From Anaerolineaceae bacterium (GTDB lineage: Bacteria > Chloroflexota > Anaerolineae > Anaerolineales > Anaerolineaceae), in the NCBI GenBank assembly GCA_002702705.1, contig PABH01000011.1, positions 1-53,473 of the forward strand: a DNA stretch of 53,473 nt, written 5' to 3'. Below, one piece after another: positions 2,647 to 36,203 of the stretch. Within the stretch, counting starts at the first letter, position 1, and the number at the start of each line of letters is the position of its first letter. Under the pieces are notes generated by a model. It was not told the DNA's origin. It saw nothing but the letters and a program-made list of their open reading frames with translations, and made no database searches. Position numbers and translations under genes: made by a program.

Positions 2647-3255
2647 TTACCTTACCTTCACCTGAATCCATATCTCCTGAGTAGGTTGTTGCGGATCATT
2701 TGTTTCAAGTATGACACCCCTTCGAATCGTTGTATTTCGCATATTATGAAACTCTGGATTAAACTGGAGAGTCATTAAAACAACTTTACCAGGGGGGATT
2801 TTAGCTGCCGTAAAAACTGCACTCGTGCAGCTGCATGTCGTATATGCACGAAAAATAACCAGCGTTGATTTTCCAATATTCGCGATGACAAACGTCCTGT
2901 TTACAACCTGATTCGCATCAATCTCACCAAAATCATAGTATTTTTCTGATAAAGAAAGCTTAGCATTTTGAGTAAAATCTATTGAATCTTCAATAGATTT
3001 TGGGGAAATAACGCTTTCCCCAATCTCATGGACAGCATAAATTATTTCGCCATAGACAATATCTTCCGGTCTGTAACGAAATTCAACGTTGGTGTTCTTT
3101 TTGTAAATTATTAAGATAGAGATAATGCTTATTAAAACAACTGCTATAGATGCTATGGACAACATATTAAATTTCCCGAAAGTAACCCTGTTATTTCCGT
3201 GAAAAAGATTTTTTTTATGATTGTCCTTCATCAATTTCTTTTCTTTCATTAGCAT
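2647..3255 (-). CDS. DUF1573-like membrane-anchored protein
   Basis: One N-terminal transmembrane helix (about residues 28-50) is followed by a linker and an immunoglobulin-like DUF1573 domain: YDFGEIDANQVVNRTFVIANIG, then TTCSCTSAVF, then IPPGKVVLMTLQF. DUF1573 domains are beta-sandwich modules found in exported proteins, often beside redox genes; no catalytic role is established. This copy has the TCSC pair but not the EGCxPP pair of the second DUF1573 protein at 27477. It is followed two bases later by the L,D-transpeptidase gene, so the two are probably co-transcribed. The start is uncertain because no strong ribosome binding site is visible. Confidence 0.75.
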   Translation of the reverse strand: MLMKEKKLMKDNHKKNLFHGNNRVTFGKFNMLSIASIAVVLISIISILIIYKKNTNVEFRYRPEDIVYGEIIYAVHEIGESVISPKSIEDSIDFTQNAKLSLSEKYYDFGEIDANQVVNRTFVIANIGKSTLVIFRAYTTCSCTSAVFTAAKIPPGKVVLMTLQFNPEFHNMRNTTIRRGVILETNDPQQPTQEIWIQVKVR

Positions 3256-9069: not shown

Positions 9070-12000
9070 TCAGGTTTCAGTGAGATAGTTTATTTTTTGA
9101 CTCTGAACGGTATTTTGGTCAAGACATTTGCTTAATTCTTGCGCCAGGGTCACTACAGTTGGTTTTACGAGAAAGGCCACGTGATTGGCTTGAATCGGAT
9201 GAACAGTAATTTGACCCTCGGCAAGCTTCTGCCAGCCCAAAGCTGAAACTTGTTTGTCATTTCCATCCGAATCAAAATCTACAGCGCGAAACAACGTGAT
9301 ATTACCGCGATATGGCTGGGCAGCGTATTGTTGGACCATTTGCTGGTGGGTGCGGATCAGTTTTAGAATTCGCCGGACAGCGGGCATTTTTATGAGCAGT
9401 AAGCTCTCTTCCTGTGATACGGTTTGCGCTATTTCTGCTTCCTGAAGCAGCCGCGTTCGCCATGTATCCAATACAGCCCAACCCAGCAAATCTTTTAATT
9501 TGGGTTTCCGCTGTCCTGATCCATTCTTACGATTGCCATAACTTGATAACAAAAATAGGCCGCTGCGCACGTAGTTTAAAATGGGATCAATTGCAAACCA
9601 TTTTTTTTGAATCTGGTTGGGTATAGATAAGCCCCATTCTTTAACCTGTTTGAGATTTTCGACAATGGACGTCTCTGAATGATGACCATTGGAAAGGTGG
9701 GGTGCATTTGTGTCCAGCATGATCAAATTGTTAACCAACTGACCCTGTTTGGTTAATTGTTGTGCTATCTCGTAAGCCACTACGCCACCAACCGACCACC
9801 CCAAGAGGTTATAAGGGCCTTCCGGCTGAATGGTTTTGAGTACTTCCACATACTGTGCGGCCATTGTTTCAATGCTCTTTGATCCTTGCTCTGGATCGTA
9901 AAGCTGCGGATCCTGAATTCCATAAACAGGCTGTTCCTTTCCCAGATAAGCTGCAAGTGTATAGTATGGAAAAACAACCCCTCCCGCCGGATGAATACAA
10001 AACAGAGGTGTTTTATTTCCTTTGGGTTGAATCGGTACGAGTGAGGTGGGAAGCTTAGGCCGCTCCGCCTTTTCCGAATAGTTTATTTCGATACCAAGGA
10101 ATGCGGAGACCCCTTTGGGATGGTGCTGGATCAGATAGTTGGATAAAGCAAAAACCGTAGGTGCTTCAAATATTGCGGTAAGAGAGACCGGCTCATTCAG
10201 TGCATCTTGAAGCTGGGAAACACAGATCGCCCCACTTAAAGAATCGCCACCAAGCTCAAAAAAGTTATCGTATCGTTTCACATCTTTTATGTTTAACAAT
10301 TCACCCCACAGTTGGGAAAGATAGCGTTCAAGTGATTTATTAGTTTTATCAAAGCGTGTATTTTGGTGAGTTATTTCTTTTTCTGCCACGCCGCCCGTTT
10401 GATTTTTTAATTGAACCTCATTTGGTGGTGCTCCATCCCTTAACTGCGGGTGAAAATCCGGTTCATTAAACGAGAGGATATTTAAAAGTGGTTGGTTTGA
10501 TCCGGTTGCTATGATTTCCAGTATCTGAATCAATTCATCGATTAATTGCTGGGCAAAGTTCGCTTTAAACCTTCCCAGATCGTAGAGGATTCGCAGATTG
10601 ATCTTTTCACCTGGCGTAATGGCAACGGTTAAAGGAAAAGTCGTTTTTTCAAGGGATCGAATATCTCGAATCGCTAACCTATCAAAAGATTCCAGCATTT
10701 CATGAAAAGCAGGATAATTTTCAAAAACCAGAATACTATCGAAGAGGAATGTGTTGTGAGGCATGCCTATCCAACCAGGAATTTTCGAGAGGGGCGTATA
10801 ACCGTACTGTTGTATATTAAGTGCTGTTTTTTGAATCTGTGGCAGCCATTCAAATAATAAAATATTAGGGGGTACCGTTATTTTTAAGGGAAGGGTGTTA
10901 ATGAACAATCCCACCATGGATTCAACACCTTTGAGTTCGTATGGGCGTCCGGCGATGGTAATACCGAATAAAATTTCATCCCGTTGAAAGGTACGACTCA
11001 AGAGAATTGCCCAAGCACATTGCATGATTGTCCCCAGCGTAAGCTGTTGTTTCCTTGCAAATGTCTTTAATTTTGAAGTGGTGTGAACAGAGAGGTTTTT
11101 CTTCAATTCAGCAGTTCTTAATTTGTCCACCCCAGGGGAAGAAGTTTCGCGAACGGGTAACCACGTCGTCTTTGAAATTCCGGATAAAGCATTTTGCCAA
11201 AAAGCTTCTGCTTTGGAAAGGTCTTGCGATTGAAGCCAAGAAATATACTCCCGATAGGGCTTAACAGGGGGTAAGGAGATTTCTTTGTGTTGGGTAAAGC
11301 CTTCATAGGCGGTAAACAATTCTTTAAAAAGAATCGGCAAAGACCATCCATCCAGCAGGGCGTGGTGATGCGTAAACAAGATGCGGTAGACCCCTTCAGA
11401 TAATCTAAGAACGAATAATCGAAACAAAGGGGGAGAAGACAGGTCAAAACCGCGTTTTCGTTCGACTTGTATTCGTTTATCAAACCGTTCAGTTTGTTTT
11501 AATGGCGGGATGTTTTCCCAATCTTGCAATTCTATTTCAAGGGGAAGGTGTTTATGCACCACTTGAACGAGATCCTTTGCTCCTTTCCAAATAAAGGAAG
11601 TTCGTAGGATGGCATGGCGATTGAGCATAAATTGCCATGCTTTTTGGAAAGCAGGCATATCCAGCGTACCGAGAAATGTAAAAATAATCTGTTGAACATA
11701 GACATCCGATTCGGGTGTAAACAAGGTTGGCAAGACCATACTTCGCTGCATGGATGAAAGCGGATAGATTGCTTCCAGATTTCTTTTGTGAGGAGAAGTT
11801 TGGACGAAGCTCGCGGCATCTACCAGGATATCTAAATCAGACTGCGTTCGTTTAATATCCGGGAAATCCGAAGGCGTATACCCCCATATTTTTGGATTCT
11901 GAGCATAAGTGATCAAAGAGCGTAATTCGTTAAGAAAGAAGGTTGCAAAGCGGTCAATGGTAATTTTTTTATGCAGCCGGTCACTATAAGTCCAATTTAC

Positions 12001-15000
12001 TTGAAGTTTTCCCTGATGAATCAAGGCATCTATTTCGATCAGATGGGACCGATGGTTAGCAGCACTGCGCTGGAATTCGGCTGCTTCTGATGCGAATCCC
12101 AGAAGATTACTTTCCGAATCGTTTTCAGGGAGTTGTCCTAAATAGTTAAAACGAATACCCGGCGTAGCCAGCTGTTCCAAGCGGTCATCTTTTTTTGCAA
12201 TTGGGCTGAGATATCGAAAAATGCCATAGCCCACACCATGAAGAGGAATAAGACGTAGTTGCTCTTTAATCAGCTTGATTGCCTCTCCCTGATCCGGGTT
12301 CCCCGGAAGTGATAAATAAATTGGATAAAGCGCAGTAAACCAACCCACGCTGTGGGTTAGCTGAATGCCTTTAACCATATTTTCCCGCCCGTGAGCTTCC
12401 AAATCAATAGCCAGCGTGTCCTCTCCCGTACAATTTTTAAAAGCACGTGCCATTGCTGTAAGTAAAAAATCTAAAATATCCGCTCCAAAGGCGGCAGGGG
12501 CTTCCCTAAGCAGTACCCGGGTCTCTTCTTCTGTGAAAGACCGGGTCACCTGCCGAGCTGTTGATTCTTTATTAAGATCGGATAAGGACTGGTCTGTAAG
12601 ATCAAAATCAATTGGCAATGAAGGTGTATCCATGGCCAGTGTTTTTTTCCAAAAGTTCGTTTCCTTTAAAAATTGTGGAGAATTTGCATATGTTTTTAAT
12701 TGCTGGCCCCAAGCCTTATAAGATGTAGTGGTGGGGGAGCCAGTAACCGGGTTGCCTTTTTCAGATTGCAGGTATGCCTTTTGAAGATCGGGCAGCAAAA
12801 TATGCCAGGAAACTGTGTCTATGGCAAGATGGTGAACGATAATCAGAAGGCGGCCTGGCCGGTCTTTTCCTACATTAAAATACACCAAACGAATGAGAGG
12901 GCCTGTAGTTATATTAAGACTTTGCTGCTGAATTTCGATTTGTTTTTTAAGCGCATCCTCTTGTTGTAAAGGGGGTAAATTTGAAAAATCAAATACATCA
13001 CAGGGTACTTCTACTTTATCGAGAATTTCTGATCGCCAACCGGATTTTCCCGGATAGTAACGCATCCGAAACACATCGTGTTGATTGATAACGACTGCGG
13101 CCGCCGCACGCAAATGGTACATCTGGAGCGATTTCTCCGTCACGAACAGAATCGATTGGTTCCAATGATGTGGATTCGTAAAATCTTGTTCAAAGAACCA
13201 GTGTTGAATCGGCGTGAAATAAAGCTGCCCTGAATCTTCTTTTAGCTGCGGTGGATTGTGTGATGGCTCCACTCGTTCAGCTAAGGCTGCCAATTGTTTG
13301 ATCGTTGACGCTTGAAAAATATGCTGCGGATTGATTTTTAATCCGGCTTCTTCAGCATGGATGACAACCAATATACTCATGATCGAATCGCCCCCCAGTT
13401 CAAAAAAATTATCTTCGACTTGTACCTTGTCGATCCCCAAAACTTTTTGCCAAATTGAAACGAAAATTTGCTCCTTTTCACTAAGGGGAGCATCGAGTGA
13501 CACATTTTGTGTGGGCAATACGTAATCCATGTTAAGAAGTGCCTGGCGATCGACCTTCGCAGAAGGAGTAAGTGGAAATGATTCCAACGGTACAAATGCG
13601 GTCGGCACCATGCTGCGTGGTAATTGCTGGCTCATAAATTGAGCAAGTGTTGTGGGTAGAATCGATTTTTCTATTTTTGGAACGATAAAAGCCACCAGTT
13701 GTTTTGCATGGGATTGAGGATGATTTAACAACAAAACCGCGGCTTGTTTGACCTCAGGGTGTTGGGATAAAACCATCTCAATCTCACCCAATTCAATCCG
13801 CATGCCATGAAATTTCACCTGAGAATCGGCTCTACCCATAAACAGTAAGTTGCCATCAGGGAGGTATCGGGCGACATCGCCGGTTCGGTATAAAGTCTCT
13901 CCTTTTATAAAGGGAGATGGAATAAAACGTTCACCAGTTAGTTCAGGTTGGTGGATATACCCGCTCGATACACCAGCCCCCCCAATAAATAGTTCACCCG
14001 GCATTCCCTGCGGTACCACTTGCAAGTTTTCGTTTAATAAATATATTTTTGTATTGGCAACGGGTTTCCCAATGGGTGTGTTTCCACTGTGAGGGGCAGC
14101 GGGATCAACCTGATAAAGCGTGCTGCAAATGGTCGTTTCGGTCGGCCCATACCCATTCAGCAAACACAAACCAGGAATCTGGTTGCAAATAGTCCTTAGC
14201 AGACGGTCAGAGATTGGCTCTACGCCCACCAGCAGCCGACGGAGATACGGTGTTTTAGGATTGCTTTTTATCCATTTCGCAAAATCTTCCAATAAAAAAG
14301 GAGGTAAATAGGCACTATGAATTTGATTCTCGACCATCCAGGTAAAAAGCTTGGAAGCCATTAAACGAATTTTTTCAGGGATAATATGCAGGATCCCGCC
14401 CACCAACAAAGGGGAAAATATTTCGTAAACAGAAACATCAAAACTGGGACTGGTCCACCAACTACATTGCTCGCCCGGTTGGATCGGTTGTCGCCGCTGA
14501 AAATCCGCCAATAGATTAACGACACCTCGGTGAGACAGCAGCACCCCTTTTGGACGACCACTGGAGCCCGAAGTGTAAATTACATACGCTAATTGATCGG
14601 GGTCATTGATAAGTATAAGGTTGGAGTGCTTTTTACTATTTTGTTTGTTAAGCTCTGAATCCAAACAAATCACAGTGTCTTGGAAGTCTGGCATTGTTGT
14701 GTGTAGTTTCTGCGATGTAATCATTAAAATAGGTTTGGTTTCCTCGATGACGAAGTCCAGCCGTTGGTTCGGAAAGCCCGGGTCCAGGGGCAAATAAGCG
14801 CCTCCAGCTTTTAAGACACCTAAGATGGCTACAACCATTAAAACGGAAGATTCTAAGTAGATCCCCGCGATGCCATTCTTGCCAACGCCCTTTTCCCGAA
14901 GCAAATAGGCCAACTGATTGGCCTTCTCATTCAGTTCTTTGTACGTTAATATCTCTTTACCAAGCACCACAGCGAGCGCATGGGGTGATCTTTGCACTTG

Positions 15001-16515
15001 TTTTTCAAAGAGTTCATGCAGACAAAGTGAGTCAGGATAGTCGGATTCCGTATCATTCCACTGATTAATTAGTAATTCCTGCTCGGATTCCGGTAGGGTT
15101 TGGAGAAGAGAGACTGGTTTTTGCGGGTCGTGTGTTATATCCTCTAGCAGCGTGCAATAACTTTGTGCCAATCGAGTGATTGTATCTCTGTCATAAAGGT
15201 CTGTCGCATACTCCAGGGAGATGATTATTTCATCATCTGTCTCAGCAGCCATCATCATTAATTCAAATGGCGCAACGCGGTGGGCAATGTGCACAGAACG
15301 GATCGAGAGACCTTCCAGATCAATTTGCTGGCTGCCTTGCCCTAACATAAATGGACCAGCATTTTTTTTGGGAATGATAGGGGGTGCTTGTTGCCATGAA
15401 AAAACCGTCTGAATCAACGGAGAACGACTGAGTTCCCGGTTTGGCTGAAGGTTTTGTACCAACTCGGCAAAAGGATACCAATCATAATGACTGCCTTCTT
15501 CAATGGATTGGTGTACTTTGTTTAATAATTCCAGAAAGTTCATCTCATCCGAAAAAGCAGTTCGGACGATCATTTGATTCACAAAATACCCGACAACCCG
15601 AATGGTAGAAAGGTTCCTGCCAGCTTTTGGAAAACCCACCAAGATATCCTTCTGACCCGTGTAACGATATAAAAGGGCTTGGTAGGCGGCGAATAGAACA
15701 GTATAGAAGGGTACTTTTTGTTGTTCTGCCAAGTTGCGGAGTTTGTGTGTTCGTTCCCTATTAAGATGGAAAAAATGAACAGCACCTTGTCCGGTTAATT
15801 CAGTTGGGCGAGGCAGGCTGGTGGAGAGGTTAAGGGTGGGGAGTTCACCCGATAAATTTTTTCGCCAATAATTCCAGGCAGCTTCCCCTTGTTTGCCCTC
15901 TAATTTCTCTTTTTCTTGGATTACATGATCTTGATAGGTTTTGTGGAGAGTTCGCAAGGAGGCTGGAATCCCGTCTGTCTCCTCCCGATAAATAGCGGCC
16001 ACTTCCGACATAATGATCGCACTAGACCATAGGTCAGCTACTATATGATGAAATATAAAAAGAATTAAAGGCTGCCTTATAATTTCTTTCTTCTCATCAT
16101 CAACAAAAAGAGGGGCGTTCAAAATCACCGTCACGCGCCAGGTTGGCCCCTTCTCTAAATCGAAGGGATGGTATGTTTTTTCCTTTATAAACTCGTCCAT
16201 TTGATCTGGCTGCCACATAGATGCATCTTGAAGGTGGTATGAGATCTCTATGGCAGGTTGTACACGTTGAACCGGTTCTCCCTGTTCGATTGTAAACAAG
16301 GTTCGCAGCATAGGATGCCGATCTGCGAGTTTTTGTAGGGATTGTTTTAAAGCTTCCAGATTTGTATCATCTGGCACCGCAACCGCCGCGGCAAGATGAT
16401 AGGCAACATTGGTAGGGGCCAATTTATAATGAAACCATAGTGCGGATTGTCCGCGTGAAAGCGGATAACTTTGAAGTTGAGTTGTTTTATTGTTTTGCAT
16501 GACTTGTTTTAACAA
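9070..16515 (-). CDS. Non-ribosomal peptide synthetase, C-A-T-E-C-T-TE
   Basis: A single 2481-residue NRPS. Domains in order: condensation (about 15-460; HHIVADLWS), adenylation (about 490-1000; YTSGSSGRPKG, GYGPTETT, YRTGD, PSAKVDR), carrier (FFELGGDS near 1038), epimerisation (about 1095-1555; HHLAIDTVSW, GVGYG and FNYLGQ), condensation (about 1580-2020; HHHALLDGWS), carrier (GGDS near 2089) and thioesterase (about 2165-2481; GWSVGG near 2239, late His in NHVAF). Adenylation pocket residues by hand alignment to GrsA read D-V-Y-Y-L-G-G-I-C; I do not assign a substrate. The second module has no adenylation domain, so its carrier must be loaded in trans or not at all. The start is TTG at 16515, ten bases after GGAGG. 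No MbtH, phosphopantetheinyl transferase or exporter is adjacent. Confidence 0.9.
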   Translation of the reverse strand: MLKQVMQNNKTTQLQSYPLSRGQSALWFHYKLAPTNVAYHLAAAVAVPDDTNLEALKQSLQKLADRHPMLRTLFTIEQGEPVQRVQPAIEISYHLQDASMWQPDQMDEFIKEKTYHPFDLEKGPTWRVTVILNAPLFVDDEKKEIIRQPLILFIFHHIVADLWSSAIIMSEVAAIYREETDGIPASLRTLHKTYQDHVIQEKEKLEGKQGEAAWNYWRKNLSGELPTLNLSTSLPRPTELTGQGAVHFFHLNRERTHKLRNLAEQQKVPFYTVLFAAYQALLYRYTGQKDILVGFPKAGRNLSTIRVVGYFVNQMIVRTAFSDEMNFLELLNKVHQSIEEGSHYDWYPFAELVQNLQPNRELSRSPLIQTVFSWQQAPPIIPKKNAGPFMLGQGSQQIDLEGLSIRSVHIAHRVAPFELMMMAAETDDEIIISLEYATDLYDRDTITRLAQSYCTLLEDITHDPQKPVSLLQTLPESEQELLINQWNDTESDYPDSLCLHELFEKQVQRSPHALAVVLGKEILTYKELNEKANQLAYLLREKGVGKNGIAGIYLESSVLMVVAILGVLKAGGAYLPLDPGFPNQRLDFVIEETKPILMITSQKLHTTMPDFQDTVICLDSELNKQNSKKHSNLILINDPDQLAYVIYTSGSSGRPKGVLLSHRGVVNLLADFQRRQPIQPGEQCSWWTSPSFDVSVYEIFSPLLVGGILHIIPEKIRLMASKLFTWMVENQIHSAYLPPFLLEDFAKWIKSNPKTPYLRRLLVGVEPISDRLLRTICNQIPGLCLLNGYGPTETTICSTLYQVDPAAPHSGNTPIGKPVANTKIYLLNENLQVVPQGMPGELFIGGAGVSSGYIHQPELTGERFIPSPFIKGETLYRTGDVARYLPDGNLLFMGRADSQVKFHGMRIELGEIEMVLSQHPEVKQAAVLLLNHPQSHAKQLVAFIVPKIEKSILPTTLAQFMSQQLPRSMVPTAFVPLESFPLTPSAKVDRQALLNMDYVLPTQNVSLDAPLSEKEQIFVSIWQKVLGIDKVQVEDNFFELGGDSIMSILVVIHAEEAGLKINPQHIFQASTIKQLAALAERVEPSHNPPQLKEDSGQLYFTPIQHWFFEQDFTNPHHWNQSILFVTEKSLQMYHLRAAAAVVINQHDVFRMRYYPGKSGWRSEILDKVEVPCDVFDFSNLPPLQQEDALKKQIEIQQQSLNITTGPLIRLVYFNVGKDRPGRLLIIVHHLAIDTVSWHILLPDLQKAYLQSEKGNPVTGSPTTTSYKAWGQQLKTYANSPQFLKETNFWKKTLAMDTPSLPIDFDLTDQSLSDLNKESTARQVTRSFTEEETRVLLREAPAAFGADILDFLLTAMARAFKNCTGEDTLAIDLEAHGRENMVKGIQLTHSVGWFTALYPIYLSLPGNPDQGEAIKLIKEQLRLIPLHGVGYGIFRYLSPIAKKDDRLEQLATPGIRFNYLGQLPENDSESNLLGFASEAAEFQRSAANHRSHLIEIDALIHQGKLQVNWTYSDRLHKKITIDRFATFFLNELRSLITYAQNPKIWGYTPSDFPDIKRTQSDLDILVDAASFVQTSPHKRNLEAIYPLSSMQRSMVLPTLFTPESDVYVQQIIFTFLGTLDMPAFQKAWQFMLNRHAILRTSFIWKGAKDLVQVVHKHLPLEIELQDWENIPPLKQTERFDKRIQVERKRGFDLSSPPLFRLFVLRLSEGVYRILFTHHHALLDGWSLPILFKELFTAYEGFTQHKEISLPPVKPYREYISWLQSQDLSKAEAFWQNALSGISKTTWLPVRETSSPGVDKLRTAELKKNLSVHTTSKLKTFARKQQLTLGTIMQCAWAILLSRTFQRDEILFGITIAGRPYELKGVESMVGLFINTLPLKITVPPNILLFEWLPQIQKTALNIQQYGYTPLSKIPGWIGMPHNTFLFDSILVFENYPAFHEMLESFDRLAIRDIRSLEKTTFPLTVAITPGEKINLRILYDLGRFKANFAQQLIDELIQILEIIATGSNQPLLNILSFNEPDFHPQLRDGAPPNEVQLKNQTGGVAEKEITHQNTRFDKTNKSLERYLSQLWGELLNIKDVKRYDNFFELGGDSLSGAICVSQLQDALNEPVSLTAIFEAPTVFALSNYLIQHHPKGVSAFLGIEINYSEKAERPKLPTSLVPIQPKGNKTPLFCIHPAGGVVFPYYTLAAYLGKEQPVYGIQDPQLYDPEQGSKSIETMAAQYVEVLKTIQPEGPYNLLGWSVGGVVAYEIAQQLTKQGQLVNNLIMLDTNAPHLSNGHHSETSIVENLKQVKEWGLSIPNQIQKKWFAIDPILNYVRSGLFLLSSYGNRKNGSGQRKPKLKDLLGWAVLDTWRTRLLQEAEIAQTVSQEESLLLIKMPAVRRILKLIRTHQQMVQQYAAQPYRGNITLFRAVDFDSDGNDKQVSALGWQKLAEGQITVHPIQANHVAFLVKPTVVTLAQELSKCLDQNTVQSQKINYLTET

Positions 16516-20887: not shown

Positions 20888-21634
20888 TTATAAAGAAACT
20901 CCTTTTTTTTCTTCATCAGTAGAATCAATCCAGGTATACAACATCCAGAGTGAAGCAGCTAAAACAATTAGCGCAAAAATCTGAGATACCCGAAACCCGT
21001 TCCAAATTGTGCTGTCACCTCTAAAGGCTTCTATGAATAAACGCGCAGCGGATGAGAGGGCAATTACCAGCCAGAAACTACGTCCGCTGCCCAGTTTCAA
21101 AGGATATTTCAAAATAATGAACAAAATAATTATCGCAAGCAGGGTTTCATAGATTTGAGTAGGATGACGATATTCGTTCCAGAGATAAATTGACCACAGT
21201 GTATCGGATGGTGTCCCAAAAGCATCTCCGCTTAGTAAATGAGCGAGTCCCTGAAACACCAAAAAGACTGCCAGAGCTGGTGCAAGGGCATCCAAAGCGA
21301 GGCGAATACCTAGTTTTTTGCGTTGCCCATAGAGGAATGCAGCAAACAATCCAATCATCAATCCTTCAGGGATAGAGAGTGTATCCGGGGTAAGTGCAAA
21401 AAGACTTAATGGATTAGAGATGTAAGCGTTTATATACCTGGCAGCATAAGCTACCCTTGCCCCGATCAGACCAGCGATTAAACCGATAAAGATCAGATTG
21501 GAAATTAGATCGGATTTGATGCCTATTCTCAACGCCCGTTTTTCCGCAATCCAAGAACCCAACCACACTCCTATTAATAAGGATAGACTGGCCAGTGGTA
21601 ATAAGAACGGTCCTAAACGTAGATAAGGTAACAT
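20888..21634 (-). CDS. Lgt-family membrane protein, divergent
   Basis: This 248-residue protein has about seven hydrophobic segments and clear prolipoprotein diacylglyceryl transferase hallmarks (GARVAYAARY, RHPTQIYE, a late RLFIEAFRGD). The central HGG motif of genuine Lgt, whose His matters for catalysis, is replaced by SIPEG, and the GRxGNFxN segment is not evident. It may therefore be a paralogue with another role. It starts one base after the tlpA stop, within the ccdA-tlpA-lgt-like operon. A second Lgt-family gene is at 35400. Confidence 0.75.
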   Translation of the reverse strand: MLPYLRLGPFLLPLASLSLLIGVWLGSWIAEKRALRIGIKSDLISNLIFIGLIAGLIGARVAYAARYINAYISNPLSLFALTPDTLSIPEGLMIGLFAAFLYGQRKKLGIRLALDALAPALAVFLVFQGLAHLLSGDAFGTPSDTLWSIYLWNEYRHPTQIYETLLAIIILFIILKYPLKLGSGRSFWLVIALSSAARLFIEAFRGDSTIWNGFRVSQIFALIVLAASLWMLYTWIDSTDEEKKGVSL

Positions 21635-27354: not shown

Positions 27355-27476
27355 GCGTAAAAAATACAGGCTTTTTTAAAGCTGTGTGAAGAAATTAACA
27401 GGAATATATGCCTATTGTGGAAAAAAATCCTGCCCTTTACAATTACTATAATTTATCCTATTTGAAGGAGGCTATA

Positions 27477-27974
27477 ATGGCTGCCCCAAAAAAATATTCG
27501 TCAAAATCAAAAAAGATGCAAAAAAAAGAAGTAATAAAAACCCCGCTATTTCTTATCGGGGGTGGGGTTATTATTTTACTAATTGCTTCGTTCTTTGTTT
27601 TCGGAAAAAAACCGGAACCATTTACGCCCGAGGTTGTTGGCTCCCCTAAATTACAGGTCGATGAAGCGCTTGTAGATTTAGGGGATGTTCAGTTGGGGAA
27701 AACTGTCCAGACTTCGTTTGAGGTGCACAATGTGGGTGATCAGGTTCTGCGCTTCACCCAGAAGCCTTATGTGGAAGTTAAGGAGGGCTGTTGACCCCCC
27801 ACCCCCGTCATCGGTTCGATGACCCTCAAACCCGGTGAATCCACCACCATTTCTATGCAATTTATGATGCATGGGGATATGGGCGGACCCCATGACTTCC
27901 GGCTTCATTTGCCAAACAATGATCCTACTAAACAAGATCTATTCCTAACCGTGCTTTCCAACTGGGTGCCCTAA
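27477..27974 (+). CDS. DUF1573-like protein with in-frame UGA, probable selenoprotein
   Basis: One transmembrane helix (about residues 24-43) precedes a DUF1573-like beta-sandwich (VDLGDVQLGKTVQTSFEVHNVG). At codon 106 the frame meets TGA (27792-27794), directly after a cysteine codon, in the context E-G-C-U-P-P-T. The frame then continues for 59 conserved-looking codons (ISMQFMMHGDMGGPHDFRLH) to TAA. From memory, relatives have EGCCPP here, so UGA replaces a cysteine. A 7-bp hairpin with a G-U-U loop starts 12 bases after the UGA, as required of a bacterial SECIS. Selenocysteine insertion is therefore the best reading; a single nonsense mutation is the alternative. AAGGAGG supports the ATG at 27477. 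No sel genes are in the window. Confidence 0.75.
27807..27823 (+). promoter_or_regulatory. SECIS-like hairpin downstream of the UGA codon
   Basis: GTCATCG pairs with CGATGAC around the loop GTT. The first loop G lies 19 bases after the UGA, inside the 16-37-base range known for bacterial SECIS elements, and the loop begins with G-U (or GGUU if the last pair opens), which is the feature SelB recognises. A bulged U, common but not universal, is absent. Confidence 0.6.
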
Positions 27975-28037
27975 CAATCGGGAAAATAAACCCAATTGGA
28001 TGGATGAAAAAAACCTTCCTTTTTATCACAGGTAAAT

Positions 28038-28514
28038 ATGAAAAATAACCAAGTAATAAAATTCTCTTTCCGGGCTCGTTTTTCTCTCTTGTTTTTATTT
28101 ATACTGCTGATCAGTCTACTTTCCGCTTGCAGCACGAATAACCCGACCAGAGAAAGTATATTGGATTTAGCCCCGCTTTCCGTCTTACCCATGGATATGC
28201 AACAATCCCCTGTTACGGTGCGGGAATCGTATCAATTTGCAGTTGCCAACCCGGATGCGTTAAAAAACGTGCCATGTTACTGTGGCTGCAATACAATGGG
28301 GCATGCCTCTAATTATGATTGTTATATTCAGGAAATCGAACCCTCCGGGGATATTGTCTTTGATGAGCATGCCTTGGGTTGTTCGATTTGTGTTGATATT
28401 TCTCAGGATGTGATGAAGCTGACGCGGGAGGGAAAATCTGCGCCGGAGATCCGGGCATTCATTGATCTGACCTATGCCCAATATGGTCCATCCAATATGC
28501 CGCCGGTGGAATAG
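28038..28514 (+). CDS. PCYCGC-motif lipoprotein
   Basis: A 158-residue lipoprotein (signal ending LLSACS) carrying the namesake motif PCYCGCNTMGH of the PCYCGC family (PF13798), followed by DCYIQ and LGCSICVDISQD. The seven or so conserved cysteines and the histidine suggest metal binding outside the cytoplasm. Members occur near cytochrome oxidase and copper genes, but their biochemical role is not established to my knowledge. CAGGT precedes the ATG. It lies in the plus-strand cluster with the CuA proteins, which supports a CuA assembly or metal-delivery role. Confidence 0.8.
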   Translation: MKNNQVIKFSFRARFSLLFLFILLISLLSACSTNNPTRESILDLAPLSVLPMDMQQSPVTVRESYQFAVANPDALKNVPCYCGCNTMGHASNYDCYIQEIEPSGDIVFDEHALGCSICVDISQDVMKLTREGKSAPEIRAFIDLTYAQYGPSNMPPVE

Positions 28515-28518
28515 GTTT

Positions 28519-29025
28519 ATGAAATTTCAGGTTGCAGACAGTGATTTGATAAACCGTATTAAAAACGATTGGTGGTTCTTTGTGCTCCTTATTCTGGGAC
28601 TGCTGATCATTTTTGTTCCGTTACCACAAGCACAAGCCGCCCCGATAGACCGGCATCTTCGTATCGAAGCCAGCATGTACCAGTTTACGCCAGGGGTAAT
28701 CAAGGTCAATAAGGGAGACAAAATCACGCTTGATCTGGTTGCTATGGATGTGGTGCATGGACTTTCATTGGATGGATATGATTTTGAATTGACAGCCGAT
28801 CCGGGTCAAACGAAAACGGCTGCTTTTATTGCTGAAAAAACGGGTGTGTTCCGTTTTCGGTGTTCGGTGGCATGTGGCAATTTACATCCCTTTATGATCG
28901 GTAAATTGCAAGTCGGTCCGAATTTGATGTTTATCCGTGCTATGCTGCTCGGAATACTAGCTATGGGGGCAGCGTTTTGGTCTCTGCGTAAACCATTCTC
29001 CAATCTGAAAGAGGTCAACAATTGA
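28519..29025 (+). CDS. Membrane-anchored CuA-type cupredoxin
   Basis: An N-terminal helix (about residues 19-37) anchors a cupredoxin domain with a complete CuA signature: His in VVHGLS and C-x3-C-x3-H-x2-M in CSVACGNLHPFM. This is the binuclear copper centre of cytochrome oxidase subunit II and of N2O reductase. A second hydrophobic segment near the C-terminus (FIRAMLLGILAMGAAFW) is unusual. No catalytic subunit accompanies it. The following gene overlaps its stop by four bases, so electron transfer to the polyferredoxin is plausible. The ATG at 28519 lies five bases after the previous stop. Confidence 0.85.
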   Translation: MKFQVADSDLINRIKNDWWFFVLLILGLLIIFVPLPQAQAAPIDRHLRIEASMYQFTPGVIKVNKGDKITLDLVAMDVVHGLSLDGYDFELTADPGQTKTAAFIAEKTGVFRFRCSVACGNLHPFMIGKLQVGPNLMFIRAMLLGILAMGAAFWSLRKPFSNLKEVNN

Positions 29026-30347
29026 ATCGGATTGATCTGACCCGTTTTCCAACGATAAATTTATTATTACGCAGCCGTTGGCCTCAATTTCTTATCCGCG
29101 CCATCACCCTGGCAGGATTTGTTTTCACAATTTTGGCTGGCTTGTTTGGCCCCGTGGTGGGCAGCCATAATTTTGCAATTATTTTTGTGTGGATCGCCTG
29201 GTGGAGTGCGCTTAAATTGTTTTTCATTCCCTTTGGCGGGCGTTCCTGGTGTAGTATTTGCCCAATTCCCATGCCCGGCGAATGGATGCAACAGCGAGGG
29301 GTCTTTTCTCCAACGGGAAAAGGTTTTGGTCTTGGCAAACGGTGGCCTAAAAAATTACGCGGTAATTGGCTGCAGGCTGGTGGTTTTCTTCTGATCGGGT
29401 TATTTGGGGCTGTCACGCTCACTTCCGCAAAAGTCACAGCAATCATCTTATTTTCTATTATTGCATTGGCTTTTATCTTAAGTCTTATTTTTGAACGGCG
29501 CTCCTTCTGTAACTACTTGTGCCCAATTGGCGGCTTTACCGGATTATATGCCCAAGCCAGCCCGGTGGAGGTGCGGGTGAAGGAGAAGCAAATATGTGCA
29601 GAACACAGCGAAAAAACCTGTTATACAGCTTGCCCCTGGGGGCAGTATCCGTTGGCGTTAAAATCTAGTGCAGATTGTGGATTATGTATGGAATGCTTGC
29701 GGGTTTGCCCGTCCGATAATATCATGGTTAATTTGCGTCCTTGGGGAAGTGACCTAGGGCAAAAAGCAAAACACAACCTGGGAGATGTTTTCCTGGGCTT
29801 GGTGATGCTTGCGAGCGTGCTGGTTGATTCGGCGGTCTTTTTAGGCACATGGGGGCAGCTCAAGAGCGCGGCTTATGAAGTTGGCAGCCTGCCTTGGTTA
29901 ATTTTTGCTGGTGTGTTTTTAATAATTTCTTTGGGTGTTCTGCCGGGACTCTATTCAGCCGCTATATGGGGCGCAGTTAGGGTAGGTTCTGCAAAGACTA
30001 CCTTCCGGAAAACTTTATCAAAGTACGGGCAAGTTTTGGTGCCGTTGGGGCTGATGTCATGGATTGCCTTTACGGTTTCGTTCGCATTTGTAAAATTTTC
30101 GTATGTCTTGCCCGTTATTTCCGATCCCTTTGGGTGGGGGTGGAATCTGATCGGTATGTCTGGTACGGCAAGTATTGGGCAATCCACTTCATGGAGTGGA
30201 TGGATTCAAATTCTTCTTTTGGTCATTGGGTTGTTTTGGTCCAGCAAGGTAACACAGCAGATCAGCGAGAGCAAAAAACAAGCGCTGCCCATTGTTGCTT
30301 TTTCCGGTCTTTTTACTGTGAGCATGTTATGGTTATTGATTGGCTAA
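29022..30347 (+). CDS. NosR/NapH-like membrane polyferredoxin
   Basis: The 441-residue protein has several transmembrane helices and cysteine motifs CSICPIPMPG and CNYLCPIGG, which are the CxxxCP-type motifs of NosR/NapH/RdxA membrane proteins, plus a 4Fe-4S binding segment CGLCMECLRVCP and CYTACPWGQYP. It would move electrons between quinol and extracytoplasmic carriers. The start is TTG at 29022, overlapping the previous stop, with GAGGT upstream. In nos clusters such a protein accompanies NosZ; here it lies between two CuA proteins with no NosZ in the window. Confidence 0.82.
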   Translation: MNRIDLTRFPTINLLLRSRWPQFLIRAITLAGFVFTILAGLFGPVVGSHNFAIIFVWIAWWSALKLFFIPFGGRSWCSICPIPMPGEWMQQRGVFSPTGKGFGLGKRWPKKLRGNWLQAGGFLLIGLFGAVTLTSAKVTAIILFSIIALAFILSLIFERRSFCNYLCPIGGFTGLYAQASPVEVRVKEKQICAEHSEKTCYTACPWGQYPLALKSSADCGLCMECLRVCPSDNIMVNLRPWGSDLGQKAKHNLGDVFLGLVMLASVLVDSAVFLGTWGQLKSAAYEVGSLPWLIFAGVFLIISLGVLPGLYSAAIWGAVRVGSAKTTFRKTLSKYGQVLVPLGLMSWIAFTVSFAFVKFSYVLPVISDPFGWGWNLIGMSGTASIGQSTSWSGWIQILLLVIGLFWSSKVTQQISESKKQALPIVAFSGLFTVSMLWLLIG

Positions 30348-30354
30348 TTAGTTT

Positions 30355-31359
30355 ATGAAAAAAGAAGTTTTCGCCCGTATTTTGATTGTTTTATTTATTG
30401 GCATGGTGATCCTGATATTTGTACTTGGGTGGCAAAAAAATCGAAATCAACAAACAAATACCATTCAAATCCATGCTCGCATGCCCGAAAATGGGGGATG
30501 GAGTATCACTTCAATCGCTGCGGAAACGAATCAACCTATCAATCTGAGATTAACAAGTGATGATGTCGTCCATGGTTTTGCTGTGGGGAAATCGGACCAG
30601 CCAACGGTAGAACTTATACCGGGAGAATTTGTGGAAACCACCCTCTTATTTGATGAACCGGGCACGTACACCTATTACTGTACGCGCTGGTGTGGACCAA
30701 ATCATTGGCGAATGCGCGGCACGATTGAGGTTCAGGGGGAGATGGCAGCCGCTACCAATCCGCCCCCCTTATATCTCCAATTGGGCATTGATATTGATGC
30801 CCCACACGAAGCTAAAGTTACACCACGAGAACCGGTGTCACCCCAAAAGGGTGCTTCCTTTGCAGAAGACTTGCCCGCCTATGTATTCGAGCAAGAGACA
30901 TACTTAGCAAACAGCCCGGCAAGTGTATGGTCACGTTTGCGGGCGGAACCTGACTTGTCCGCGTTAAATGATGGGGATATATGGAATGTGGTCGGCTGGA
31001 TCTGGCGGGAAAATACTTCACCAACCGCCATTAAAAGCGGTGAGAGCCTGTATGCCGAAAATTGTGCGGCCTGTCATGGTGAAACAGGCGAAGGAGATGG
31101 TGTGATGGTGCGTGATCTTCCCATTCCGGAGGCAGAAGCGCATGATATGTATGATTCACATTCAGAATCATCAACAGCCGGTTTAACCCGTCCACACGAT
31201 CTGACTGATCCGGATCATCTGCTGGGTGCCAGCCCGGCTTTACTGGCCGGAAAGATAATCCGCGGGGGGATGGGCACGGGGATGCCATATTGGGGACCCA
31301 TTTTTACCAGCCAGCAAATTGATGCTCTGGTGAGTTATTTACACACCTTTGTTTGGTAG
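30355..31359 (+). CDS. CuA cupredoxin-cytochrome c fusion
   Basis: A single N-terminal helix, then a cupredoxin with a full CuA site (VVHGF and CTRWCGPNHWRM, matching C-x3-C-x3-H-x2-M), then after a linker a mono-haem cytochrome c with CAACH near residue 238 and a probable axial Met in GTGMPYWG. The fusion resembles caa3-type oxidase subunit II, but with one transmembrane helix rather than two and with no subunit I in the window. It starts seven bases after the polyferredoxin gene. It is likely the electron exit or entry point of this cluster. Confidence 0.87.
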   Translation: MKKEVFARILIVLFIGMVILIFVLGWQKNRNQQTNTIQIHARMPENGGWSITSIAAETNQPINLRLTSDDVVHGFAVGKSDQPTVELIPGEFVETTLLFDEPGTYTYYCTRWCGPNHWRMRGTIEVQGEMAAATNPPPLYLQLGIDIDAPHEAKVTPREPVSPQKGASFAEDLPAYVFEQETYLANSPASVWSRLRAEPDLSALNDGDIWNVVGWIWRENTSPTAIKSGESLYAENCAACHGETGEGDGVMVRDLPIPEAEAHDMYDSHSESSTAGLTRPHDLTDPDHLLGASPALLAGKIIRGGMGTGMPYWGPIFTSQQIDALVSYLHTFVW

Positions 31360-31404
31360 TCTTTCTTGGAAGTAGAAAAAGATAACCCAGGCTATAACCT
31401 TTTG

Positions 31405-31433
31405 TTGGTATCCAGTATTAAGGCAGGTATAAT
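31405..31433 (+). promoter_or_regulatory. Sigma70-type promoter, likely leaderless transcript
   Basis: TTGGTA at 31405-31410 and TATAAT at 31428-31433 are separated by 17 bases. Transcription would start at about 31440-31441, at or next to the A of the ATG at 31441. AAGGG just before the ATG is too close for a standard ribosome binding site. Confidence 0.55.
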
Positions 31434-31440
31434 AAAGGGC

Positions 31441-32112
31441 ATGAGATCTGAAGATAAAATACGCATTCTCCTGGCCGATGACCATGCTGTTGTCCGAGCC
31501 GGCATCCGTCAATTTCTGGAACAGAGTGCTGATATCAAAGTAATCGCTGAAGCATCTAATGGGCAAGAAGCACGCGAATTTCTAGAAAAAAATATTGTTG
31601 ATGTCGCTGTACTTGATATTCAAATGCCTTTAATGAGTGGAATCGAACTTACCCGTTGGGTTCGTTCAAGTAACCTCTCAATTGGCATATTGATCTTGAC
31701 TGCTTATGAAGAAGAACCTTACGTTCGTGCAGTTCTCCAAGCAGGAGCAAACGGCTATGTTCTAAAAAGTGCAGATCCCGATGAAATTATTGAGGCTGTC
31801 CAGGATGTATTTCAAGGTAAATCTGTATTGGATCCTAATCTGACCCAAAAACTTTTTATACAGCTTGCTACTCCTGATGACCCTCCTATTAGTGAAGCGC
31901 TGACCAATCGCGAATTACAGGTTTTAGCCCACACTGCTAAGGGTTATACCAATAAAGCAATAGGGATGCAGTTAGGGATTAGTGATAGAACTGTGCAAAA
32001 CCATTTGGCAAACATCTTCCAAAAAATGAATGCAGAAAGCAGAACGGAAGCTGTCATGAAGGCTGTTTCTCAAGGATTAATTTCTACAAGCCTTGATGAA
32101 CCAGCTTTATGA
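31441..32112 (+). CDS. NarL-family response regulator
   Basis: The receiver domain has LLADDHAVVRAG, phospho-acceptor Asp in VAVLDIQMP, Thr in ILTAYEE and Lys in VLKSAD. The C-terminal LuxR-type helix-turn-helix reads LTNRELQVLAHTAKGYTNKAIG. The start at 31441 gives the canonical receiver N-terminus; the upstream in-frame ATG at 31366 lies before the predicted promoter. Its kinase gene overlaps the end. A closely related regulator without kinase lies at 39905. Confidence 0.88.
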   Translation: MRSEDKIRILLADDHAVVRAGIRQFLEQSADIKVIAEASNGQEAREFLEKNIVDVAVLDIQMPLMSGIELTRWVRSSNLSIGILILTAYEEEPYVRAVLQAGANGYVLKSADPDEIIEAVQDVFQGKSVLDPNLTQKLFIQLATPDDPPISEALTNRELQVLAHTAKGYTNKAIGMQLGISDRTVQNHLANIFQKMNAESRTEAVMKAVSQGLISTSLDEPAL

Positions 32113-33886
32113 TTTTTCGGAAACTAAATCGGCCCAAACAGAGACTGGTCTCATGTTATCAAAACTAAAAAATAAATCCACAAATAAATTCAATTGGAGA
32201 GGTTTCACTCTCCAATTGTTTGTAATTACAATAATTCCTTTAGCCGCTCTTCTCTTAATCGTTGCTTTTGGCAGCCAATCTTTACATCGGGAAGCTATGC
32301 GCAATCTTGTCGGTGATCGCGATTTGAGAACAGCACGGGCAGCAGCCAGCTCCATAGAACAAGAAATTGATCAATCGATCAACACTATGGATTTACTATC
32401 ACGTAGCCTGGATATACAATCCGATTTTTCTTCGTTTATTTTCAAACCAGAGGAAATCAATTCGATTTTTGATGGTGGGTTGGCATTGTTTTCACGGGAT
32501 GGTCAATTTATTAAATCTTCTTCTACCCGAATAGACTGGCAAAAAATCCCTCCGCAAATTCTGAAATCATTTAATTCGCTAAAAAAAGAAATTACACCTT
32601 CTGTCGTTTTAGGACAACCTGTTATTTCCAAAAATTCTGAAGCTTACCTTTTAATTGTAACCATTACAGATAATCATGAAATATTAGTTGGCGCATTTTC
32701 TGCCAACCGACTGATAAAAAACGCGATCGGTGATTTGGTTCAAATGAGTCAAACAACAACAGTTGTGATTAGTCCTGGTGAAATGGATGAAAAGTATGAA
32801 ATACTTTTTCAAACAGGTACTCTCTCTTTAGGGAAAGAAGGCGTTTTTCATCCGGGAATTAGAGATTCACTAAATGGAGAAAGTGGAATTAATTATTATC
32901 AAGGGGAAGAAGGTGAACATGTTATTGCTTTTGCACCAATTCCATCGGCAGGGTGGGGCTTAGTAAGTGAAGAAGCGTGGGAAAATATTGCCAACCCCTA
33001 TTTAAATACGACCCAGTATGCCCCATTAACAATTATTCCTGTTTTTTTATTTACATTAATGGCTGTATGGTTTGGGGCCAGGCGAATTGTGCAACCCCTT
33101 CAAAAACTGGAAAAACAAGCCGCTAACTTAGCAAATGGTGACTTTGCAGCCATTCAAATACCTGTTGGCGGGATTGCAGAGATCCGGAATCTTCAACTTG
33201 AGTTGATCGAAATGGCTGCAAAGTTAAAAGATGCCCAACAAAATTTACATAGTTATATTGGGGCAATTACAGAGGGTATTGAAAACGAACGCCGTAGTCT
33301 GGCACGCGATATCCATGACGACACGATACAATCACTTATTGCATTGAATCAGCGTATACAATTGATCATGATGAAAGCTGCTGACCACCAAAAAAAAGAT
33401 TTGCAGGAATTACTCGCTTTGATGAGGCAGACAATGGAAAATCTACGACGTATGATCCGTGGATTAAGACCTATATACCTTGAAGATTTAGGCTTATCCG
33501 CTTCATTAGAAATGTTAGTAAATGAAATGGAGCAAACAGCCAATATACCCATTAAATTTCAGTTACATGGATTGGAATGCCGTCTTGATTCAAATACTGA
33601 AATGCTTCTTTATCGAATGGTACAGGAATCGCTAAACAATGTAATTCACCATGCCGAAGCCAGACATTCCTGGGTAGAACTGGGGTTTTCTGAAACGGAA
33701 ATATTTATTAAAATTTGGGACGATGGAAAGGGATTTGTTGTGCCTGCCAATCCTACAGATTTTACAAAATATGGTCATTTTGGTCTGATAGGGATGCAGG
33801 AAAGGGCTGAGATTATTAATGCCGATTTTAAGATTTCGGCGTCCCCAAATAACGGGACGGAGATTACAATTAAGATAATAAAATGA
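32096..33886 (+). CDS. NarL-type sensor histidine kinase (HisKA_3)
   Basis: The roughly 596-residue protein has a transmembrane helix near residues 40-62, an extracytoplasmic region of about 240 residues with a Cache-like character, a second helix (APLTIIPVFLFTLMAVWFG), a HAMP segment, a coiled coil, the HisKA_3 phospho-acceptor region RRSLARDIHDDTIQSLI and a HATPase domain (DDGKGF). The start is uncertain: ATG at 32096 overlaps the regulator gene, and ATG at 32153 is an alternative; neither has a clear ribosome binding site. Coupling to the regulator upstream makes them a pair. The signal is unknown; control of the adjacent CuA/cytochrome cluster is a reasonable guess. Confidence 0.85.
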   Translation: MNQLYDFSETKSAQTETGLMLSKLKNKSTNKFNWRGFTLQLFVITIIPLAALLLIVAFGSQSLHREAMRNLVGDRDLRTARAAASSIEQEIDQSINTMDLLSRSLDIQSDFSSFIFKPEEINSIFDGGLALFSRDGQFIKSSSTRIDWQKIPPQILKSFNSLKKEITPSVVLGQPVISKNSEAYLLIVTITDNHEILVGAFSANRLIKNAIGDLVQMSQTTTVVISPGEMDEKYEILFQTGTLSLGKEGVFHPGIRDSLNGESGINYYQGEEGEHVIAFAPIPSAGWGLVSEEAWENIANPYLNTTQYAPLTIIPVFLFTLMAVWFGARRIVQPLQKLEKQAANLANGDFAAIQIPVGGIAEIRNLQLELIEMAAKLKDAQQNLHSYIGAITEGIENERRSLARDIHDDTIQSLIALNQRIQLIMMKAADHQKKDLQELLALMRQTMENLRRMIRGLRPIYLEDLGLSASLEMLVNEMEQTANIPIKFQLHGLECRLDSNTEMLLYRMVQESLNNVIHHAEARHSWVELGFSETEIFIKIWDDGKGFVVPANPTDFTKYGHFGLIGMQERAEIINADFKISASPNNGTEITIKIIK

Positions 33887-35399: not shown

Positions 35400-36203
35400 A
35401 TGATCACAATTTCAATCGATCCAATATTATTTTCAATTGGTCAGTTCCACATTCGCTGGTACAGTCTAATCGTCACAACTGCGATTATTATTGGCGGATG
35501 GTTAGCAATTCAAGAAGCCGGCAGAAAAGGATTTAATAAAGAAAGTGTGACCAATGGCGCTGTATGGATTATTATTGCCGGATTAGTTGGTGCCAGACTT
35601 TTTCACGTGATAGACCATTGGTCGGATGTCTTTGCGATGAATCCAATCCGTGCTTTTTATATTTGGGAAGGAGGTCTAGCCATCTGGGGTGGTATCGTCG
35701 GTGGGTTAATTGCGGCTGTCATCCTCGCCCGTGTCCAACATTGGAAATTACCACGCTTTTTAGATGCCTTGGTCCCAGGTGTTGTTTTGGGACAGGCTGT
35801 TGGAAGGTTAGCCTGTGTAATCACTGGTGATTCAATTGGAAAGTTTACAAGCGGGCCTTTTGGGTTTGCATATACAAGCCCAAATGCCATGGTTCCGCAA
35901 CTCGGTGTATATTATACCCCTACCCCCGTTTATGAAATATTCATGAACTTGGCAATCTTTTCGCTCTTGTGGAACTTGCGCAAGAAAAACTTACCGGATG
36001 GAATTTTAACGCTGATTTATTTGCTTGCGTATGCAGTAATTCGGTTTTTTATTGCTTTTACCAGCGCATACAAAATTATCGCTTTTGGTCTTAATCAAGC
36101 CCAACTTATTAGCATTCTTGTTTTTACCATAAGTGCACCATTATTGATTTTCCTAACAACGCAGAAAAGAAAACTTTCTATTAGAAGTAAGTCAATGTCA
36201 TAA
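35400..36203 (+). CDS. lgt: Prolipoprotein diacylglyceryl transferase family protein
   Basis: The 267-residue, seven-helix protein has Lgt features: IRWYSLI near the N-terminus, GARLFHVIDHW, GGLAIWGGIVGG, GQAVGRLACVITGD and TPVYEI. It is closer to true Lgt than the paralogue at 20888, although the catalytic-region HGG appears as WGG and GRxGN as GRLAC. Lgt transfers diacylglyceryl from phosphatidylglycerol to the lipobox cysteine. Many lipoproteins are encoded in this window, which gives it substrates. Which of the two family members is the housekeeping enzyme, if either, cannot be told here. Confidence 0.75.
   Translation: MITISIDPILFSIGQFHIRWYSLIVTTAIIIGGWLAIQEAGRKGFNKESVTNGAVWIIIAGLVGARLFHVIDHWSDVFAMNPIRAFYIWEGGLAIWGGIVGGLIAAVILARVQHWKLPRFLDALVPGVVLGQAVGRLACVITGDSIGKFTSGPFGFAYTSPNAMVPQLGVYYTPTPVYEIFMNLAIFSLLWNLRKKNLPDGILTLIYLLAYAVIRFFIAFTSAYKIIAFGLNQAQLISILVFTISAPLLIFLTTQKRKLSIRSKSMS

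Follow-up and report, generated by a model that had tools for sequence, protein, structure and literature searches.

This locus raises the question of whether an in-frame TGA (27792-27794) inside a DUF1573-type domain ends translation or is read as selenocysteine (Sec) and, if it is read, what the resulting selenoprotein might do. The frame begins at ATG 27477-27479 and remains open to TAA 27972-27974, with the TGA as its sole interruption; it lies in the window, by which we mean the whole 53,473-nt stretch of DNA that was analysed, and the features discussed below are collected in Table 1. A sequence-only reading had placed the TGA in a domain of this type, directly after a Cys codon in the motif EGC-UGA-PP and 59 sense codons ahead of the TAA. 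The coordinates agree with the sequence and with the spans of the Pfam matches, the motif reads EGC-U-PP in the translation, and the same number of sense codons was counted. The predicted protein scores 28.9 bits against Pfam DUF1573 (PF07610, cut-off 26.1) over residues 60-136, which places it in that family, and a second match, to PF22544 (HYDIN/CFA65/VesB-like Ig), scores higher, with 40.3 bits over residues 57-158. Both matches run across the TGA, so the domain is cut by it, and since both spans contain Sec106 the expectation that a stop here would truncate the domain holds.

Table 1. Features of the predicted selenoprotein gene and the genes that follow it (positions in the window)
Feature	Position	Strand	Evidence or remark
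Shine-Dalgarno-like AAGGAGG	27465-27471	+	read in sequence; 5 nt 5' of start codon
Predicted selenoprotein gene, 165 aa, Sec106, stop TAA	27477-27974	+	ORF, families, relatives
Predicted helix, residues 25-43, after Lys-rich N-terminus	27549-27605	+	AlphaFold2 and hydrophobic stretch
Cys105 codon TGT	27789-27791	+	sequence; C precedes Sec column in 70/70 members
UGA codon, predicted Sec106	27792-27794	+	TGA in 69/70, TGC in 1/70 distinct members
Candidate bacterial SECIS hairpin, stem 27807-27813/27817-27823, loop GUU 27814-27816	27807-27823	+	fold, alignment, published constraints
MHGDMGGPH segment: Met131, His132, Met135, His139	27867-27893	+	conservation; proposed copper ligands
PCYCGC (PF13798) protein, first cassette neighbour	28038-28514	+	101.7 bits; within 6 kb in 33/38 loci
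Cupredoxin, CuA-type motif CSVACGNLHPFM, upstream VVHG	28519-29025	+	family scan, motif; 24/38 loci
NapH-like ferredoxin-type protein	29022-30347	+	family scan, under NCBIfam cut-offs; 28/38 loci
CuA-type domain (CTRWCGPNHWRM) fused to cytochrome c	30355-31359	+	family scan, motif; 28/38 loci
Two ORFs after cassette, LuxR-type response regulator-like and histidine kinase-like	31366-33886	+	names from reading translations

We compared the codon at the Sec column among 70 distinct family members, taken as the distinct fetched loci scoring >85 bits in pooled searches; some are near-identical, so they are not independent. Most relatives had been expected to carry Cys and a few to carry UGA. We found the opposite, with TGA in 69 members and TGC in one, and this exchange between UGA and UGC at exactly the Sec106 codon supports Sec. 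Searching 400 genomes of the phylum at E 1e-10 gave 30 matches in 21 genomes, 29 of them with one TGA and the last a 3' piece of a frame-shifted copy. In a profile search of 400 phylum genomes, each of the 29 matches at 111 bits or above had one TGA, and next in rank came the frame-shifted 3' piece, at 66 bits, followed by a CGC-type domain at 60.9 bits. Two of the weaker matches, L080 and L151, held a TGA. The order (188 genomes) yielded 49 profile matches at 93 bits or above; a single TGA is present in 48 of them and absent from the other. Six peptides lying off the Cys-Sec site, scanned against 84,980 species, recovered 14 loci, some near-identical, and all read GCU at the site; this is the one scan that covers Cys relatives outside Chloroflexota, and it reaches relatives of 51% identity or more, so more distant Cys relatives may exist in other phyla. 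The window genome itself carries two paralogues of the gene, at 79% and 67% identity, both with a single TGA in the same motif.

Several individual loci and searches deserve mention alongside these counts. L080 (G270:C39:24463-24951) is divergent, keeps the TGA in GCUPP and has an insertion between GCUPP and the PGE motif; at 54.6 bits it falls under the 85-bit line and was left out of the 70. L151 (G129, C226; 42.6 bits) has a TGA in a different context, GGCTU, and was excluded from the members. The very divergent member L059 (G015:C277) reads SCUPQ, with Sec kept and Met131, Met135 and His139 gone. L057/L060 (G112:C1:4125077-4125534) is a copy of the gene broken by a frameshift, in which TGA and hairpin are retained. 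The gene at L026 (LAKY01000076.1, titled Clostridiales bacterium PH28_bin88) is nearly identical to that at the Levilinea (Chloroflexota) locus L024, and L026 is likely a wrongly binned contig or a recent transfer. A plasmid search gave a single match, an annotated serine peptidase at 28% identity, a phage search gave none, and none of 19 pattern matches in viral contigs was confirmed.

For the stretch downstream of the TGA, dS could be computed in 10 of 11 pairs, and each of these has a dN/dS of about 0.12 or lower. The dS is saturated in some pairs, and one pair consists of nearly identical sequences. On these ratios the stretch after the TGA is evolving as coding sequence under purifying selection. 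A true stop, a sequencing error or the mark of a pseudogene has a vanishingly small probability: decay does occur in the family, as the broken copy in G112 (L057) illustrates, but nothing points to it in the window gene, whereas the TGA is shared by nearly all distinct members, including every locus from the off-site peptide scan, and the codons behind it are under selection.

A 7-bp hairpin with a G-U loop had also been described 12 bases after the TGA, at the distance known for bacterial SECIS elements, and measurement in the sequence bears this out. The strands GTCATCG (27807-27813) and CGATGAC (27817-27823) enclose a 3-nt loop, GTT, and the gaps from the TGA are 12 nt to the stem and 19 nt to the loop. 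The 2026 review PMC13188914 gives constraints for bacterial SECIS elements: a stem of 4-16 bp, a loop of 3-9 nt with G in the first two positions, a spacing of 16-37 nt and an MFE <= -7.5. We applied these four constraints by hand to the window gene, and its hairpin (7 bp, 3-nt loop GUU, 19 nt, -8.3 kcal/mol for a 24-nt stretch) falls within all of them. Folding energy by itself is unremarkable (z of -0.98 over 49 nt and of -1.94 over 59 nt) and was rejected as not decisive.

Comparison across the family was more informative. The covariation set consists of 40 distinct 48-nt stretches in a gap-free alignment, one of them from the frame-shifted copy. Pairing is retained in 97.5% of the 280 stem cells, six of the seven stem pairs show two-sided changes, and in 0 of 500 shuffles did either the paired percentage or the score for covariation come as high. 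The number of further pair types, one of five measures taken, showed no excess, as 260 of 500 shuffles scored as high. Sliding the stem partner by 1 to 3 columns left 18-67% paired, and alignment columns 23 and 24 are G in 40/40 and T in 39/40 genes, respectively. Pairing and covariation across the 40 genes thus indicate that the hairpin is not a chance structure, and together with the published constraints they bear out the SECIS assignment that the sequence-only reading had proposed to check. The stem doubles as protein code, so some of the covariation could reflect shared ancestry and amino-acid replacements; exchanges on both sides of six pairs would nonetheless be hard to obtain from those sources alone.

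The only Cys form among the 70 members, L135 in genome G538, reads EGCCPP and adjoins the same four cassette genes as the window gene. It lacks the SECIS stem: its 24-nt stretch folds at -3.1 kcal/mol versus -8.3 in the window, and its 48-nt stretch forms another structure, at -13.6 versus -10.5 kcal/mol. G538 still has a tRNA-Sec (61.1 bits). In a tree of the 70 members and 5 CGC-type domains, L135 sits inside a 58-row clade that is otherwise Sec (support 100/98), in what appears to be the pattern of a Sec-to-Cys change; the tool warned that the columns were few, that the bootstrap had not settled and that some branches were long, that of L135 included, so its exact placement is provisional. 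With Cys in place, the hairpin lost and tRNA-Sec retained in its genome, L135 offers a natural Sec/Cys comparison and, if the reading is true, would add a new bacterial example of a change from Sec to Cys.

The sequence-only reading had also proposed a search of the genome for selA, selB, selD and tRNA-Sec, and all four are present: tRNA-Sec with anticodon UCA scores 72.4 bits, SelB 377, SelA 537 and SelD 362 bits. The SelD gene (L013, G000:C22:186400-187335) has an in-frame TGA of its own, in the context SSCAGUASKL, so SelD itself is likely a selenoprotein. A tRNA-Sec exceeds the cut-off in 44 of 49 other member genomes (18/21 and 26/28). The five that lack one (G121, G129, G259, G446, G521) are 63% to 89% complete; two of these, G129 (82% complete) and G259 (89%), have SelB matches with E-values of 2.0e-31 and 4.7e-49, judged to be under the SelB cut-off, and G121 has no tRNA-Sec over the cut-off yet has SelB at 385 bits. 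The tRNA-Sec of G400 reaches 48.8 bits only, a level also attained by secondary matches elsewhere, and G029 has a tRNA-Sec and a weak SelB match (9.9e-58). SelB is over its cut-off in 307 of 400 phylum genomes, so its co-occurrence with the selenoprotein gene across the phylum is weakly informative.

TGA serves as the terminator at the aligned C-terminus in 11 of 43 family genes, the frame-shifted copy L057 not counted, which indicates that the code has not simply been reassigned. Insertion of some other amino acid, or leaky readthrough, is very improbable: the open frame is compatible with it and nothing further is, while the covarying SECIS hairpin, the UGA/UGC exchange at the codon, the complete Sec machinery and the TGA terminators all speak against it. 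A true stop, a sequencing error and code reassignment were ruled out by the conserved TGA, the covariation, the TGA terminators and the coding signal downstream. The sequence evidence therefore leaves selenocysteine as the almost certain reading of TGA 27792-27794. SelB and tRNA-Sec(UCA) would decode this UGA, guided by the hairpin at 27807-27823.

The product would carry a membrane anchor followed by an Ig-like domain (DUF1573/ASH). In the AlphaFold2 model, where residues 1-23 fall below pLDDT 50, the architecture is an N-terminal predicted membrane helix followed by one ASH/PapD-like Ig domain of DUF1573 type; helix 25-43 would be the anchor, and the protein is probably membrane-anchored. 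Structural matches to the model are ASH/PapD-like Ig domains, the best being 2qsv (Z 14.3, rmsd 1.6, 102 residues). Foldseek and VIA-align returned this common ASH/PapD Ig fold without a functional lead, and no copper protein is prominent among the matches. When the protein was searched against PDB sequences, its membrane-helix region drew two matches, weak ones at E 0.59 and 0.84 that were taken as chance, and Rfam, run on 27400-28050, gave a single match, to RF00513 on the opposite strand at 23 bits versus a cut-off of 41, which was likewise taken as chance. Cys105 is the sole Cys of the protein, and the vicinal pair Cys105-Sec106 would hold its only thiol and selenol.

We next consider the genes around the selenoprotein gene, which we compared over 38 loci; these derive from 41 loci with flanks, after two near-duplicates were dropped and with L143 unrecognised by the pattern, and some share a genome. 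All four cassette genes, those for the PCYCGC protein, the CuA-type cupredoxin, the NapH-like protein and the CuA-cytochrome c fusion, lie within 6 kb in 24 of the 38 loci and none in 3; some loci are short, so these and the other neighbourhood counts are lower bounds. Homologues of the LuxR-like and histidine kinase-like ORFs were found within 6 kb in 12/38 and 13/38 loci. Depending on the locus, the selenoprotein gene lies at one end or the other of the four-gene row. Both cupredoxin-type proteins of the window contain CxxxCxxxHxxM with an upstream VVHG, which is the CuA ligand set. Further along, the window encodes a multicopper oxidase, a YtkA-like protein and two P-type ATPases, of which the first has HMA and YHS domains as well; according to PMC13068155, YtkA appears to deliver copper to CuA in Bacillus.

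Other genes in the window were also recorded. The copper region has a homologue of prolipoprotein diacylglyceryl transferase on each side, at 20888-21634 (-) and 35400-36203 (+). A second DUF1573-like protein, at 2647-3255 (-), has the motif TCSC and no TGA. At 9070-16515 (-) lies a 2481 aa protein with condensation, AMP-binding, carrier and thioesterase domains, by its domains a predicted non-ribosomal peptide synthetase.

Downstream of the Cys-Sec pair, 68 of 69 members have Met131, 68 have Met135 and 68 have His139, while His132 occurs in 62 of 69. Lower-scoring DUF1573-like rows have Met at 135 in 3/14 and His at 132 in 8/13, and Met131 and His139 are absent from the four commonest letters at those columns among the lower-scoring relatives. 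The near-invariance of Met131, Met135 and His139 suggests a copper site, and we propose the Met/His segment together with Cys105-Sec106 as candidate copper ligands. The neighbouring genes and the conserved Met/His residues both support a copper setting for the selenoprotein, with binding putative.

From the CuA cassette, the copper genes of the window, the Met/His conservation and the sole Cys, we infer a copper-handling or selenol-reducing factor in CuA assembly. More specifically, our tentative assignment, at somewhat less than an even chance, is an extracytoplasmic factor that helps to assemble the cassette's two CuA proteins. Cys105, Sec106, Met131, Met135 and His139 would hold Cu(I), and Cys105-Sec106 could also reduce the Cys pair of the CuA site prior to loading. 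Sco-type reductants and PCuAC-type chaperones assemble CuA in other bacteria, and one protein would here combine both kinds of role. Certain observations count against a role in copper handling: L059 keeps Cys-Sec without the two Met residues and His139, His132 is lost in 7/69 members and is found in 8/13 lower-scoring relatives that lack the CU motif, 3/38 loci have no cassette gene, and the fold comparison has no standout copper protein.

These observations leave room for a different function, in which Cys-Sec forms a selenylsulfide redox centre that donates electrons to disulfides or peroxides, copper takes no part and the Met/His residues are structural. We regard this as possible but on the doubtful side. 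It would fit the retention of Cys-Sec(Cys) in 70/70 members when L059 has dropped its Met/His residues, as well as the presence of CcdA-like, TlpA-like and thioredoxin-like genes within 6 kb in 5, 3 and 6 of 38 loci and of CcdA-like, TlpA-like or thioredoxin-like genes in the window. Such thiol-redox neighbours are, however, far rarer than the CuA genes (28/38, 24/38), and a purely redox centre leaves the near-invariance of Met131, Met135 and His139 unexplained. Returning to copper, the fullest version of the proposal is that this nearly Sec-exclusive family uses Cys-Sec, two Met and one His as a CuA-building copper site, and would thus be a Sec-containing copper metallochaperone; as a whole we consider it rather unlikely.

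If the copper role is true, selenium would be tied to the assembly of a CuA electron-transfer site in Chloroflexota, and no paper making such a link was among the matches listed in our literature searches. The codon pattern may also bear on how selenoproteins are found. PMC12013277 describes deep-Sep as retaining candidates only with a known Sec homologue or Cys homologues, and a family with Sec in 69/70 members could slip through filters of that sort. The rarity of Cys relatives (1/70, nested in Sec forms) would explain how a search for Cys/TGA pairs might pass the family over, and we infer that genes of this family tend to be annotated as ending at Cys105.

How the family relates to described selenoproteins is best judged against its nearest relative in the literature. 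The sequence-only reading did not recall DUF1573 among selenoprotein families; here it fell short, as two reviews (one of them PMC13188914) list a DUF1573 selenoprotein with the motif UGC. A 2008 ocean survey gives OS_HP2 under pfam07610 with the motif UxC and counts of 2 and 354, which we read as Sec and Cys sequences. Membership of the gene in OS_HP2, as a diverged copy and nothing new, is improbable. The two share the broad domain DUF1573, aligning CGC-type relatives by profile puts Sec in the same turn of it, and there is weak similarity to the OS_HP2 model NF041425. That similarity amounts to 24.3 bits against a curated cut-off of 100, below the scores of the CGC-type domains of the window genome (70.4, 55.4 and 46.8 bits). 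OS_HP2 sequences are reportedly described in a 2007 Olavius paper. The UGC or UxC motif of OS_HP2 is absent from the window protein, which reads GCUPP; its family has the order Cys-Sec, with Sec in nearly all members, and adds an MHxxMxxxH signature. Lower-scoring relatives, mostly CGC-type, have C at Cys105 in 13/14 and G at the Sec column in 9/12. The 70 members split from the 5 CGC-type domains with support 100/99, at a node that carries a long-branch warning, and 0 of 400 phylum genomes held an OS_HP2 match over the cut-off. We rejected OS_HP2 membership on score and motif, the comparison tree being one of the 70 members and the 5 CGC-type domains. Given the low NF041425 score and the different place of Sec, we take this as a separate family with a distinct Sec position.

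NCBIfam (June 2026) gave nothing over a cut-off for the window protein, and a Cys-Sec DUF1573 family was undescribed among the matches listed in our literature searches, for which most subscription journals were out of reach. To judge from the literature searched, neither the family nor its Sec position nor its almost exclusive use of Sec appears to have been described. Vicinal Cys-Sec is shared with CU-motif selenoproteins given in PMC13188914, the MerB-like SaoL and form 2 of a CopZ-like 2Fe-2S protein; those belong to other families, whereas the window protein has an Ig-like domain behind a predicted helix. The PCYCGC neighbour belongs to the same Pfam family (PF13798, 101.7 bits) as the CYCXC/OS_HP4 selenoprotein but reaches 69.7 bits on NF041379, cut-off 90, and no in-frame TGA was seen in the PCYCGC motif in 37 distinct motif contexts from the fetched loci. 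Sco proteins have a CxxxC motif, and Sco and PCuAC chaperones have a thioredoxin or PCuAC fold. The likeness to them lies in the proposed role only, that of an extracytoplasmic Cu(I) or thiol factor for CuA sites; with Cys105 as its sole Cys, the window protein is without CxxxC and would instead present a Cys-Sec pair in an Ig-like domain.
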